Below, piece after piece: positions 13,250 to 22,500 of a stretch of DNA of 64,000 nt. The notes under the pieces are model-generated. The model saw nothing but the letters and a program-made list of their open reading frames with translations, did not search any database and was not told the origin of the DNA. Within the stretch, counting starts at the first letter, position 1, and each line of letters opens with the position of its first letter. Made by a program: the position numbers and the translations under genes. Source of the stretch: Pedobacter puniceum (GTDB lineage Bacteria; Bacteroidota; Bacteroidia; Sphingobacteriales; Sphingobacteriaceae); NCBI RefSeq assembly GCF_009674685.1, contig NZ_WKJI01000002.1, positions 992,001-1,056,000 on the forward strand, in the 5' to 3' direction.

Positions 13250-13257
13250 TATATTTA
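13250..13257 (+). promoter_or_regulatory. Candidate -7 element (TATATTTA) for the amidase gene
   Basis: TATATTTA fits the phylum's TAnnTTTG except at the final base. It overlaps a possible ATG at 13257, so transcription from here would favour the ATG at 13272 as the true start, 14 bases downstream. Confidence 0.35.
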
Positions 13258-13271
13258 TGCGTTTTAAGCAT

Positions 13272-14083
13272 ATGAAGTATTTTATCGTTCTCTTTTCAGC
13301 ATTCATCATTGTCTCTTGTTCTCCTAAACCCTACAAACAAGCAGAAAAAATACAAACCGCAAAAATGGAAGAGGTTACCGCTAGTATTGTGGTAAATCCG
13401 GCGCCAATGGTGTTAGATTCTTCTGGTAATGCAATACCATCTGCATATATACCTACCGTAAATTTTGGCGCTCGAAAACCCTTTTATGTCATCATTCATC
13501 ATACTGCACAAGACTCTTTAGCGCAAACCATTAAAACCTTTACTATGGAAAGCACCCAAGTAAGTGCGCATTATGTGATAGGTAGAGATGGTTTTTTAGT
13601 TCAGATGTTAAATGATGAGCTAAGAGCATGGCATGCAGGTGCGGGTAAATGGGGTAATATTACGGATATGAACTCTTGCTCTATTGGTATTGAGTTGGAT
13701 AATAATGGTAGAGAACCTTTTGCCGAAGCACAAATAAATACTTTGTTATTGCTTTTGGCTAAACTTAAAAAGGATTATAATATCCCTACAGCAAATTTTA
13801 TTGGACATGGCGATATCGCACCTAAAAGAAAAGCAGATCCGAGTATATTATTTCCTTGGGATGTTTTAGCTAAAAATGGTTTTGGTTTATGGTATGATTT
13901 ACCTGATATGCCACCACCAGTTAATTTTGATGAAGAAGCTGCTTTAAAAAGAATTGGTTATGATACTACAGATATGGCTGCCGCAATAGTAGCTTTTAAA
14001 AGGCATTTTACCAAGACAGATTTGTTTCCTATTCTTTCTACTTGGGATAGATGTATACTTTATAACCTGTACAAGAAGTATTA

Positions 14084-14084
<1 letters not shown>
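13272..14084 (+). CDS. N-acetylmuramoyl-L-alanine amidase (Amidase_2 family), lipoprotein
   Basis: From ATG 13272 the protein is 270 residues with a lipoprotein signal ending in the lipobox IVSC (Cys16). A start at 13257 would add five residues and collide with a promoter-like element. The Amidase_2 domain spans about 70-215: 'FYVIIHHTAQDSLAQ' gives the first zinc His, 'AHYVIGRDGFLVQM' and 'RAWHAGAGKWGN' follow, and 'FIGHGDIAPKRKADP' provides the second His and the catalytic Lys. The enzyme would cut the bond between MurNAc and the stem peptide in periplasmic peptidoglycan, serving remodelling or recycling like AmiD. It ends in an unusual heptad tandem repeat. Confidence 0.93.
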
Positions 14085-14152
<68 letters not shown>

Positions 14153-14161
14153 TTTTTATGA

Positions 14162-15847
14162 TTATTTATTGGCTTCTTTAGCCCAACTATCTTTTAAACC
14201 AACAGTTCTGTTAAAAATTAGGTGTTCTGCTGTGGCTTCTTTGTCTAAACAGAAATAACCTTTTCTAATAAATTGGTATCTCCTGTCTGGGTTTTCTTGT
14301 AATTGCTTGATAGCTAATGTTAAGTCTGGTTCTATATAAGCGTTTTTAACTACTACCAAACTTTCTGGGTTAATGTAATCCTTAAAATCACCATCTTCTG
14401 CATCTGGTTGTTCTACTTTAAATAGCCTATCATACAATCTTACTTCGGCAGTTTTAGCGTGTTTTACACTTACCCAATGCATGGTTCCTTTTACTTTTAA
14501 TCCTGATGTATCTTCGCCAGATTTTGAGTTAGGGAAATAAGTACAATGAATTTCAGTTACATTACCATCGGCATCTTTAACAAAATCATCACATTGTACG
14601 ATGTAAGCATTTTTTAAACGACACATTAAGCCTACGCCAAGTCTGAAGAATTTCTTTGGAGGTTCTTCCATAAAATCTTCACGCTCTATCCATAACTCTT
14701 TGCTAAATGGTATTGCCCTTTCGCCATCATGGCCTTCAACTTCTGGGTTGTTTTCTCCATGTAAAATTTCTTCTTGCCCATCAGGATAATTGGTAATAAC
14801 CATTTTTATAGGGTCAAGAACCACCATTCTCCTCCACGATGTTTTATTTAAATCTTCACGGATAAAGAACTCTAGCAAACTAAAATCAATTAAGTTATCT
14901 CTTTTAGCTACACCTATTCTTTCGCAAAAATTACGGATGGATGCTGGCGTAAACCCACGTCTTCTTAAACCACTAATGGTAGGCATTCGAGGGTCATCCC
15001 AACCGGCAACAATCTGGTTATTTACCAACTGCATCAATTTACGCTTACTCATAACCGTATAGCTCATGTTTAAGCGAGCAAATTCATATTGTTTTGATGG
15101 GAAAATATCCAGTTGTTCTATAAACCACTCGTATAATGGGCGGTGTGGAATAAACTCTAGCGTACAAACCGAGTGGGTAATTTTTTCAATAGCATCAGAC
15201 TGCCCATGCGCAAAATCATACATCGGGTAAATACACCATTTATCTCCAGTACGGTGATGATGTGCATGTTTTATCCTGTACATCAAGGGGTCACGTAGGT
15301 GCATGTTTGGGTTAGCCAAATCAATTTTAGCTCTTAAAACCTTGGCACCATCAGGATATTTACCAGCTTTCATTTCTTCAAAAAGCTGTAAGTTTTCTTC
15401 TATAGATCTGCTTCTGTAAATATTTGGAGTTCCTGCTTCTGTAGGTGTACCTTTTCCAGCAGCAATTTCTTCTGCTGTACTATCATCTACGTAAGCCAAT
15501 CCTTTTTTTATCAGGGCAACCGCAAAATCATATAATTGGTCAAAATAATCAGAAGAATAAAGTTCTTCTTTCCAATCAAAACCTAGCCATTTTACATCTT
15601 CTTTTATGCTTTCTACATATTCAGTATCTTCCGTAACAGGGTTGGTATCATCAAATCTTAGGTTGGTAGTGCCATTATACTTCTTGGCTATCCCGAAGTT
15701 TAGGCAGATAGATTTAGCATGACCAATATGTAAATAGCCATTTGGCTCTGGAGGGAAACGTGTTAAAACTCTACCGCCATGCTTGCCATTTCTAAGATCT
15801 TCTTCTATAATCTCTTCAATAAAATTTAATGATTTTTCCTCTGACAT
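14162..15847 (-). CDS. glnS: Glutaminyl-tRNA synthetase
   Basis: This 561-residue class I aminoacyl-tRNA synthetase charges tRNA-Gln directly with glutamine. The HIGH signature lies in '[15 protein letters not shown]' (32-46) and the KMSKS-like loop is 'VMSKRKL' (265-271). The glutamine-type active-site block '[15 protein letters not shown]' (207-221) and the anticodon-binding beta-barrels ('[19 protein letters not shown]') are intact. The length is normal for GlnRS and longer tails are absent. Direct glutaminylation suggests the cell does not depend solely on the GatCAB route for Gln-tRNA. It has its own promoter candidate at 15865-15872. Confidence 0.97.
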
Positions 15848-19993: not shown

Positions 19994-22500
19994 GCTAACC
20001 TTTCTACCATTTTAGCCACTCTTTCTTCTAAAGACTCGGTACTCATTTTTTCTCTAAGCCTATCTACCATGATAGGGAAAGCAAAAGGACTAGGTTGTGC
20101 CGTTTCTTTAACTATAATTTTTTGTTTTTGTATCCGCTGCAAAGCTTCTCTTAATCTAAATTCTTCTAGTTGAAAAGCTAAAGCTTCATTATAAGCCTGT
20201 CTTATTAATAAGTTATCCTTCTCGTATTCGCTAAAAACATCAAATAATAAGGATGTTGAAGATTGCAAATGTTTGTTTTTCATGGGTTTGCCCGGAAATC
20301 CTGTGAAAATTAAGCCCGAAATATGTGCAATATCTCTAAATCTTCTACGGGCCATTTCATTAGCGTTAAGGCTATTTTGTATATCGTCTATTAGATTTTT
20401 ATCGCTAAATAAATGATGTTCTAAAGCTTTTTCTAACAATACTTCATCATCAGTTAATAACTCAAAACCATAATCATTCATGGCTATAGAGAAACTAGCT
20501 TTTTTAAATTTAGATAATCTAAAACCTATTAAAGAGGCCATACCTTCATGAACTAATCGGCCTTCAAAAGGATAAAAGAATAAATGATGACCATCTCTGG
20601 TTTCTAATTTTTCTATCAGGAATTCGGTTTTTTGAGGTAAATGGGATAAAGAGTTTTGTTGAGCAAATAGCGGCCTTAAAGCAATAATTTCTTTGTCTTC
20701 TTCTACTCCTATAGCCACTTCATCAAGTTTTTCTCTAAAAACTGCTGATAGTTGTGATGATAATGGCATTCTGCCTCCGGCCCAAGTAGCAATAGCACCT
20801 TTCTTTTTGGTTGATTTTTTAACATAGGCAGTCATTTCTTTTACACGTACCAATTCTAAGTTTCTGCCTGCAAACCAAAAGTTATCGCCTATTTTAAGTT
20901 TAGCAATAAAGCCTTCTTCAACAGTGCCTAAACTGCCTCCGCTTTGGAATTTTACCCGCATGCTTATTTCACTGGTGATGGTTCCCATGCTTAAACGATG
21001 TCGCATGGCTATTCTACGGTTGTTTACTTTATACAAACCGTTTTCGTATTCTACTTTTAAATACTCATCGTACTGCGAGAGTGTTTTACCTCCTTTGCTG
21101 ATAAAATCTAGTAAATCATCAAATTCTTGAGGCAAAATATCCGCGTAAGCAAAAGTGCTTTTTATTTCTTTATAGATTTCATCGGCTTTAAAGCCATCAG
21201 AAACAGCTAGGGTAACTAAATATTGGATAAGAACATCAAAAGCTAAAATGATGGGGTCTCTACTCTCGAAAGTTTTTTGTTTGATAGCGTATTTTAAGGC
21301 AGCGCCTTCCAGTAATTCTAAAGAATGCGTTGGCACAAACCAAGCCTTAGAAGTTGCACCGGGATGATGCCCACTTCTGCCTGCCCTTTGCATAAAACGG
21401 GCTACCCCTTTAGGGCTACCTATTTGTATAACGGTGTCTACTGGTCTAAAATCTACACCCAAATCTAAACTGGAGGTGCATACTACTACTTTTAAAATCT
21501 CGGCATGTAAAGCTTGTTCTACCCAATTGCGTAAATCGTTATCTAAAGAGCCGTGGTGCATAGCCATAATGCCAGCATATTCTGGATATTTATCTAAAAT
21601 GGCTTGATACCATATTTCTGATTGCGCTCTGGTATTGGTAAATATGAGCGTGGTTTTGCTTTGGGCCACAATCTCCATCACTTCTGGTAGTAACTTTAAA
21701 CCAATATGCCCGCTCCAACTATAATTTTCTATATTTTGAGGGATGATAGAAGTGATAACGAGATTTTTATCGATATCAGCTTTGACCATTTTTTGCCGCT
21801 CTTTAGGGAAGTTAACACCCAAAAGCACTTGAGCCGCTTCTTCAAGATTACCAATGGTTGCACTAATACCCCAAATTTTTAAAGTTTGATAATCGGTGTA
21901 GGAAGTTGGAAAATCTGACTTATCTTCGGTCTTGGGTCTTGAAGTTTCCGACTTCAATCCTTTCAACCTACTTAAGCCTAGCTCCATTTGTACACCGCGT
22001 TTTGTGCCTAAGAGTTCATGCCATTCATCGGTTACAACTACTCTTAATTTTTCAAAAGTTTTAGGGTAATCTTTTTGAGCCAACATGAGGTGTAAACTCT
22101 CTGGCGTAGTTAATAAAACTTCTGGTGGTTTCCTTTTAATGGCTTGCTTATCGGCACTGCTAGTATCGCCAGTGCGGGTGCCAATTTTCCAGGGGATTCC
22201 TAAATCATCAACAACGGCTTGCATAGCCTTTTGGATATCATTGGTTAAAGCTCTTAATGGCGTTATCCATAGCATTAGCAAACCATTATTTTTTCTGCTT
22301 TGGTAATCGTTTGGATATTGATTGATATAATCTGCAAGAAAGGGCAAAAACAAGGCAAAAGTTTTACCGCTACCTGTTGGAGCATTTAACAAGCCCGAAT
22401 AGCCTTTTAAATAGGCATCCATCATTTCTTGTTGGAAAGCAAATTGCTGCCACTTTTTTTGCTTATACCAATTGCTTATGATTTTTTCTCCCGGGCTCAT
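19990..22500 (-). CDS. Ligase-associated Lhr-like DEXH-box helicase
   Basis: This 836-residue superfamily 2 helicase has Walker A 'PTGSGKT' (41-47), a DEWH box (158-161) in place of DEAH, motif III SAT (213-215) and the C-terminal RecA motif 'QRAGRSGHHPG', followed by winged-helix and Lhr-core segments ('GNFWFAGRNLELVRV'-like run 'DNFWFAGRNLELVRV'). That matches the 'ligase-associated DNA damage response' DEXH helicase, which in many bacteria is encoded with an ATP-dependent ligase, an exonuclease and a phosphoesterase; none is adjacent here. Residues about 182-206 are an insertion unlike the family, discussed separately. It is thought to act in DNA repair. Confidence 0.9.
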   Translation of the reverse strand: MSPGEKIISNWYKQKKWQQFAFQQEMMDAYLKGYSGLLNAPTGSGKTFALFLPFLADYINQYPNDYQSRKNNGLLMLWITPLRALTNDIQKAMQAVVDDLGIPWKIGTRTGDTSSADKQAIKRKPPEVLLTTPESLHLMLAQKDYPKTFEKLRVVVTDEWHELLGTKRGVQMELGLSRLKGLKSETSRPKTEDKSDFPTSYTDYQTLKIWGISATIGNLEEAAQVLLGVNFPKERQKMVKADIDKNLVITSIIPQNIENYSWSGHIGLKLLPEVMEIVAQSKTTLIFTNTRAQSEIWYQAILDKYPEYAGIMAMHHGSLDNDLRNWVEQALHAEILKVVVCTSSLDLGVDFRPVDTVIQIGSPKGVARFMQRAGRSGHHPGATSKAWFVPTHSLELLEGAALKYAIKQKTFESRDPIILAFDVLIQYLVTLAVSDGFKADEIYKEIKSTFAYADILPQEFDDLLDFISKGGKTLSQYDEYLKVEYENGLYKVNNRRIAMRHRLSMGTITSEISMRVKFQSGGSLGTVEEGFIAKLKIGDNFWFAGRNLELVRVKEMTAYVKKSTKKKGAIATWAGGRMPLSSQLSAVFREKLDEVAIGVEEDKEIIALRPLFAQQNSLSHLPQKTEFLIEKLETRDGHHLFFYPFEGRLVHEGMASLIGFRLSKFKKASFSIAMNDYGFELLTDDEVLLEKALEHHLFSDKNLIDDIQNSLNANEMARRRFRDIAHISGLIFTGFPGKPMKNKHLQSSTSLLFDVFSEYEKDNLLIRQAYNEALAFQLEEFRLREALQRIQKQKIIVKETAQPSPFAFPIMVDRLREKMSTESLEERVAKMVERLA
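21905..21957. repeat. In-frame micro-repeat insertion inside the helicase gene
   Basis: This stretch contains short inverted and direct repeats (GAAGTC/GACTTC-like, GGTCTTGGGTCTT, GAAGTTGG) unlike the surrounding codon pattern. It encodes the run KSETSRPKTEDKSDF (residues about 183-197), between the conserved 'LGLSRLKGL' and 'IWGISATIGN' of the helicase. Similar Ser/Pro/Lys/Thr/Glu runs of the 'RPKTED' type recur in unrelated Bacteroidota proteins where a small interspersed DNA repeat has inserted in frame. I am inferring this from the pattern; the dispersed copies are not in this window. Confidence 0.5.

Follow-up and report, generated by a model that had tools for sequence, protein, structure and literature searches.

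A seven-base hairpin build without a shared spelling recurs at one loop of a DNA-repair helicase in Bacteroidota

The ligase-associated DNA damage response helicase of Pedobacter puniceum carries an in-frame insert of repeat DNA at a site where many related bacteria carry other repeats of the same construction. What recurs is a build, consisting of a seven-nucleotide period, an AGT arm, a loop and an ACT arm, and not a sequence. The position of the insert, its reading frame, its period and the polarity of its arms can be read directly from the sequences compared, as can differences in spelling between near sisters and changes in length between close species. Heptad hairpins that grow, are lost and are re-templated locally, in sites that tolerate them, are probably a better explanation than one mobile element. 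Slippage and template switching would be the processes involved, judging from the end states of the arrays.

The window, the whole stretch of 64,000 nucleotides that was analysed, contains the helicase gene and its variable site (Table 1). The protein belongs to TIGR04121 (1091 bits against a cut-off of 850), has the Pfam domains DEAD, Helicase_C, WH_Lhr and DEAD_assoc, and has solved relatives in 5v9x and 7lhl. The coding strand of the insert reads GAAGTCGGAAACTTCAAGACCCAAGACCGAAGATAAGTC..., and the site measures 87 nt, as against 24 nt in insert-free orthologues (31 of 108 loci), which corresponds in frame to about 21 additional residues. An earlier note on this DNA had described an in-frame gain of about 23 residues; alignment with orthologues lacking the insert confirms that it is real, but the site extends lower, to 21874 and not 21895. 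In an AlphaFold2 model built from 25 sequences (mean pLDDT 77.7), the insert (residues 181-209) sits between a helix (167-186) and a strand (208-213) leading to motif III (SAT), with pLDDT below 50 at residues 186-205. The model suggests a disordered loop immediately ahead of motif III, a place where turnover would cost little. The insert may be near-neutral for the enzyme, and the protein containing it is presumably made.

Table 1. Features of the window, in positions of the whole stretch
Feature	Position	Strand	Basis or context
Heptad hairpin: (ATAAAGT)6, loop, ACTTTATACTTTG	14084..14152		Between convergent ORFs 13257-14084 (plus) and 14162-15847 (minus)
Ligase-associated DNA damage response DEXH-box (Lhr-like) helicase, 836 aa	19990..22500	minus	ORF; TIGR04121; Pfam
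Variable site between LGLSRLK and WGISATIG, 87 nt, residues 181-209, encoding GLKSETSRPKTEDKSDFPTSYTDYQTLKI	21874..21960	minus	Orthologue comparison; model
5' arm of degenerate GAAGACC-type heptads (GAAGTCGG..CAAGACCCAAGACCGAAGA.AAGTC)	21917..21955	minus	Aligned L004 and L005 have clean GAAGACC x3
Decayed 3' arm (CCAACTTCCTACACCGATTATCAAACTT), probably the former complementary arm of a hairpin	21882..21909	minus	Alignment; closest relatives keep ACTTCGGTC or CAGTCTTC

The repeat signal of the window copy is modest by itself, and the cross-species comparison carries the case. The insert contains 37 self-matches at a lag of seven, the highest count of any 87-nt window of the gene (33 or fewer elsewhere), and only one of 20,000 mononucleotide shuffles reaches this value (p ~1e-4). 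It is therefore a heptameric tandem repeat in the wide sense of a seven-nucleotide period above chance. Tandem Repeats Finder reports TCTTGGG x2.7 at 21923-21941 with a score of 31, which is equalled or beaten by 33 of the 34 other rows of the window, and the fold of the insert is not more stable than that of shuffled sequences (z -0.87 as DNA, -0.5 with RNA parameters). Of the direct and inverted repeats that the earlier note regarded as unlike the rest of the gene, the direct ones do stand out, while the inverted ones are weak in the window copy and strong in many orthologues. Its suggestion that the genome might hold copies of a ~55-base element found no support, as the 121-base insert stretch has a single match in its own genome (G000), which is the site itself.

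Helicase loci were collected in sets of 30 and 80, and the site was read in 108 of these 110, L090 and L111 being missed. The 108 loci give 105 distinct tree rows (identical pairs: L022/L123, L018/L072 and L014/L063). The first of these pairs joins G031, a genome of the window's family, to a Mucilaginibacter record, in keeping with that family being Sphingobacteriaceae. Cores of up to 42 nt were classed as having no insert, and a heptad insert was defined by a z of at least 3 at lag 7 or lag 14. By these thresholds, 47 loci have no insert, 42 have heptad inserts and 19 have other inserts that fail the heptad criterion. Heptad inserts are found at 36 loci of the clade that includes the window and Mucilaginibacter, and at six of the Chitinophagaceae branch (L087, L107, L108, L109, L113 and L115); none occurs in the Saprospiraceae, Cyclobacteriaceae, Balneolaceae, Chitinophaga and Dyadobacter loci read. 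The helicase tree requires heptad state to change at least 13 times and insert state at least 11 times; it is a quick tree without a mixture model, with 26 of 102 inner branches below 80. The residues encoded at the site are unrelated between genera. The earlier note held that the same residues in distant genera would indicate an ancestral loop, and other genera carry different ones. Its view that repeats gave rise to an in-frame insertion here, within a gene for DNA repair, stands, the insert being absent from the more distant orthologues read and variable in length. Separately, L123:2998-3111 encodes a stretch 55% identical to helicase residues 1-36, nearly 600 bases upstream of the gene.

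When the 55 cores of 50 nt or more are pooled, z relative to mononucleotide shuffles is 35.5 at lag 7, 29.3 at lag 14 and 22.2 at lag 21, and does not exceed 4.1 at the other lags between 2 and 20. Taken one by one, 47 of these cores have their strongest signal at lag 7, 14 or 21. Since seven is not a multiple of three, the period is a property of the DNA and not a protein repeat. The polarity of the arms is equally consistent. Among 47 non-redundant inserts (L073 and seven near-duplicates removed), AGT trimers recurring at +7 fall 51 times in the left half and once in the right, while ACT trimers fall once in the left and 65 times in the right. The same polarity is seen in seven Chitinophagaceae-branch helicases (AGT 4 left, 1 right; ACT 0 left, 5 right) and in five close opposite pairs from two genome samples.

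The coding frame is open in 41 of the 42 heptad inserts, compared with 37 of 210 for the other five frames. In the exception, L006 (G007), the heptad hairpin contains an in-frame TAG, which may mean a split gene or an assembly error. Hairpins more stable than dinucleotide shuffles (z < -2) are found in 21 of 37 non-redundant heptad inserts, with the window copy not among them, and the six Chitinophagaceae heptad inserts fold no better than shuffles (z +0.5 to +1.9). At L115, heptad arms surround two copies of a GTCATCCTGAGC..CGAAGGA-type repeat, so that one repeat kind is nested in another.

Heptad spelling differs between helicase loci, including those of near sisters. L068 (AGTC) and L069 (CAGT) lie within an unresolved fork of three rows, and L059 (AGTC) and L075 (CAGT, 309 nt) within an unresolved fork of four. 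The window helicase and its closest relatives (L003, L004 and L005) are 96-97% identical as proteins and strongly different in the insert stretch. The window carries a worn version of the clean GAAGACC x3 of L004 and L005, and the lengths are 21 nt apart. Arrays elsewhere in the genome also change between close species. Sixteen arrays in 13 sampled stretches of the own genome were compared with G013, in which 14 could be placed (for the other two, one flank pair lay on differing strands and one was not found). Eleven of the 14 had changed by more than 3 nt. Random 45-nt pieces, compared by the same method with length changes above 2000 nt excluded, had changed to this extent in 20 of the 63 intergenic and 2 of the 64 coding cases that could be placed (arrays versus intergenic pieces, Fisher p 0.002). 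The flanks of the placed arrays (n=28) are 68 to 99% identical, with 18 at 90% or above. At the intergenic sites L032:16964 and L036:11738, G013 has another hairpin-like sequence (by eye) between flanks that are 94-97% identical; the changed array at L039:8927 (99 versus 415 nt) may reflect a larger rearrangement.

Heptad hairpin arrays are frequent in the intergenic DNA of the window's family and its relatives. The example at 14084-14152 has a DNA fold z of -5.0, with none of 200 shuffles equally stable. In a 464-kb sample of the own genome, which includes the window, there are 24 segments with a lag of 7, and 27, 24 and 11 at lags 14, 21 and 28; lags 12 and 15 give 11 each, and lags 4-6, 8-11, 13, 16, 17, 19 and 20 give 0 to 7. 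By ORF model, AGT/ACT arrays of at least three units are intergenic in 28 of 29 cases in the own sample and 10 of 13 in a sample of M. flavidus. AAG arrays tie with AGT arrays at 29 in the own sample and outnumber them in the M. flavidus sample (16 versus 13), so AGT is not the sole core.

AGT-heptad pattern matches overlap, and their counts are consequently not numbers of arrays. G000 has 163 at lag 7, compared with 7 for a backward TGA control and 2 at lag 8. Across 100 genomes the totals are 4809 and 1983 (AGT higher in 57 genomes, lower in 26), but the backward control is not clean because TGA can form part of AGT heptads. Within the own genus (18 genomes), there are 696 matches at lag 8 and 1322 at lag 7; one genome of the genus, G003, has 472 lag-8 matches, the most among the 100 genomes listed. 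Further arrays were observed individually. AAAGTAN arrays at L046:15750, L039:8985 and L040:18640 are followed by a common short sequence, approximately AAAGATGCTTAAAAAGCGATATTTAGG. Two stretches (L227 and L228) of G104, the genome of L069, are identical in the printed part and contain heptad hairpins around two tRNA-like sequences (by eye).

A few tolerant protein loops also carry such arrays in coding sequence, in frame. Within the 464-kb sample, heptad segments inside ORFs occur twice in valS (NF004349, 1128 bits against a cut-off of 704), in two regions of an XrtY-associated glycosyltransferase (NF046085, 514 against 400), and at the start of an agmatine deiminase-like ORF, whose below-cut-off match starts at residue 23, after the heptads. 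The first valS site resembles the helicase site. It has a lag-7 z of 19.2, was read in 29 of 30 loci (16 with at least 48 nt and 13 with 18-45 nt), and in its 17 inserts of at least 45 nt AGT falls 16 times left and once right, while ACT falls 0 times left and 13 times right. The second valS site is weak (lag-7 z 5.6, lag 21 7.1, 24 of 30 read) and keeps its length. Site 2 of the glycosyltransferase has a lag-7 z of 19.0 (8 of 21 loci read; site 1 was read in 2 of 21), and several relatives' matches omit approximately residues 33-147 and 361-474, which are the heptad regions.

A heptad dialect common to two genes of each genome was looked for and not seen in the window's family. Mean cosine similarity is 0.016 between two genes of one genome (n 11) and 0.070 between genomes (n 293), values from short arrays that give little power. 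Within Mucilaginibacter such a dialect is weak. There, the helicase heptad type weakly tracks the genome-wide balance of types (6 versus 8 genomes, p 0.045, uncorrected for kinship). That comparison began with 24 entries, from which one duplicate genome, 8 untyped of the remaining 23, and L066 (a near-duplicate of L056) were removed. The tracking is a hint of exchange between loci.

The helicase site can also hold a larger insertion. In L073 (Mucilaginibacter sp. OK268) it is occupied by 477 nt encoding an in-frame DUF559 domain (PF04480, E 5.7e-35), which also matches the restriction-endonuclease-named family PF18741 and is flanked by CCCTCTCC/GGAGAGGG-type palindromes. The same site in L055, the sister of L073 on the tree, carries a heptad insert of 144 nt, and L025 has one palindrome of the CCCTCTCC/GGAGAGGG type alone. 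Pattern searches found the ORF in 5 of 9 stand-alone DUF559 loci, with similar palindromes on both sides in three (L136, L142 and L159, the ORF of the last being interrupted). From their arrangement, DUF559 genes and these palindromes look like a mobile pair of nuclease and palindrome; DUF559 proteins resemble Vsr-like nucleases. The one DUF559 gene of the own genome (L233, G000:C1:75000-77500) lies among tandem ~167-bp units with GAGGGGGTGCAGGGGGAGG and CTCCCTCTAGAGGGAG, and units similar by eye occur at L046:15860-16460, beside AAAGTA heptad arrays.

On match counts, neither DUF559 nor a Y1 transposase, the (RAYT) kind associated with REPs and matched four times in G000 (Y1_Tnp), is required as mobiliser of heptad arrays, as some heptad-rich genomes have no match to either. 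Among 37 genomes with at least 30 AGT-heptad matches, Y1 is absent from eight, and both are absent from four: G023, G024, G041 (where backward-control matches, at 264, exceed the 209 AGT matches) and G058 (76% complete).

In the preferred explanation, local growth, loss and re-templating, the window insert would be the decayed remnant of 7-bp AGT-core units (GAAGACC-like), a loop and reverse-complement units. Slippage in 7-bp units would lengthen or shorten arrays in place, while fold-back template switching would copy one arm into the other, or renew the hairpin in another spelling. Point mutation would then wear the array down, with selection keeping the reading frame. Local writing of this kind accounts for a shared build without shared spelling, for the absence of a two-gene dialect, for length change in place, and for heptad-rich genomes without Y1 or DUF559. 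It explains whole-array swaps between close species less well. Near sisters with wholly different spelling, and the apparently swapped hairpins at L032:16964 and L036:11738, look like replacement as much as drift.

These apparent swaps, with their closely matching flanks, lend weight to the main rival, a REP-like palindromic element moved as a single-stranded hairpin by an unrecognised transposase or nuclease, which would have landed repeatedly in the loop and then decayed. Such an element would also fit the repeated state changes on the helicase tree, the DUF559 cassette with its palindromes in L073 where sister L055 has heptads, the bare palindrome in L025, and the weak tracking of types in Mucilaginibacter. 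Counts of Y1 and DUF559 matches correlate with heptad counts (rho 0.43 and 0.39), as does genome size (0.44). Against it, the insert sequence is single-copy in its own genome, helicase and valS arrays within a genome have no heptads in common, and some heptad-rich genomes have neither Y1 nor DUF559 matches. A mobile element is a serious possibility, if a less than probable one. Rather unlikely is a further reading, in which Bacteroidota possess an enzyme system that actively writes AGT...ACT heptad hairpins into preferred sites, housekeeping-enzyme loops among them. Polarity would be fixed but not spelling, the hairpins would be rewritten at about the pace of speciation, and DUF559 cassettes would use or share the landing sites.

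Two other explanations place less in the repeats themselves. If the insert were an ancestral functional loop, a low-complexity protein segment selected for charge or flexibility, it would be expected to be filled in most Sphingobacteriaceae-clade orthologues read and to keep its frame, as is the case. Its period is not a codon period, its residues are unrelated across genera, nearly half of the loci (47 of 108) have no insert by the cut used, and the same DNA build is found in intergenic DNA, all of which makes this explanation very improbable. That the insert is chance low-complexity sequence with meaningless repeats might be argued from the window copy alone, given its low Tandem Repeats Finder score and lack of a fold signal. 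It is scarcely credible in view of the shuffles of that copy, and is refuted by the pooled test over 55 orthologues.

Several known repeat systems share features with the heptad inserts. Rickettsia palindromic elements are palindromic DNA kept in frame within genes, and form multi-copy families with a shared sequence. The heptad inserts keep the coding frame open in 41 of 42 cases, and folding supports a palindrome for 21 of 37 of those in orthologues and not for the window copy. No common family sequence was found among them, and no element sequence of the window insert is common to several genes.

GTAG/CGTC REPs are described, in the sections of the source drawn on here, as short palindromes that are mostly intergenic and sometimes in frame, their hosts including many DNA synthesis and repair genes as well as tRNA synthetases and RNA helicases (BMC Genomics 2013, PMC3733652). 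In one instance, the recB genes of two Xanthomonas carry them at roughly matching positions, a parallel to the reused helicase loop. The heptad arrays are similar in being palindromic, mostly intergenic, and in frame in a repair gene and a tRNA synthetase. They differ in that REPs are tagged 20-40 bp stem-loops in many-copy families, while heptad inserts are 7-nt arrays with no shared spelling. The window insert has neither GTAG nor CGTC at its ends (by eye; one GTAG lies 8-11 nt before it, inside conserved LSR codons), and its one match in G000 is not the many copies of a REP family. One helicase site, moreover, has been refilled across two families.

Heptamer repeats are also known. TAACTGA direct repeats, mostly intergenic and in part within ORFs, were reported from five Bacteroidetes and interpreted as a possible translational-regulator site (MacGregor 2015, PMC4679880, in the portion consulted). 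These are likewise 7-nt tandem units, but that system uses one fixed heptad, whereas here there are many heptads, a hairpin build and in-frame loops. The window insert is GAAGACC-like and is not a TAACTGA repeat; a TAACTGA array is present elsewhere in the own genome, at L048:9480, just before an ATG. Heptameric simple sequence repeats are known from bacteria (Mrazek et al. 2007, as cited in PMC4679880 and PMC4692102), and in Xanthomonas and Nostoc the units are GGGAATC and GGGGA(T/C)T (PMC4692102). In the available part of PMC4692102, 7-nt units are over-represented, their length and sequence vary between close species, slippage is proposed and inverted forms are mentioned. The heptad arrays share the 7-nt units and the variation among close species, but those repeats are G-rich and studied there chiefly as intergenic quadruplexes, unlike the hairpins described here.

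The kind of element is not new, given what is known of heptamer repeats and of REPs lying in frame in repair genes. No report of heptad hairpins in Bacteroidota proteins was found in one open-access library, in searches for which the helicase was barely, and valS never, a search term. Within the literature searched, the Bacteroidota heptad hairpin, with its fixed polarity, free spelling and reused helicase loop, appears to be new.

Here, across two families, a single loop of a repair helicase holds repeat DNA that keeps its build but not its spelling, and valS shows this again. These loops provide a set of natural examples for studying how 7-bp repeats and hairpins arise, and how conserved enzymes tolerate fast-changing translated junk. 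Should the arrays be written by an enzyme system, each hairpin would record a process and would not be a replicating sequence. More broadly, such arrays may be the source of puzzling low-complexity inserts in other proteins of Bacteroidota, where they can mislead alignment and annotation.
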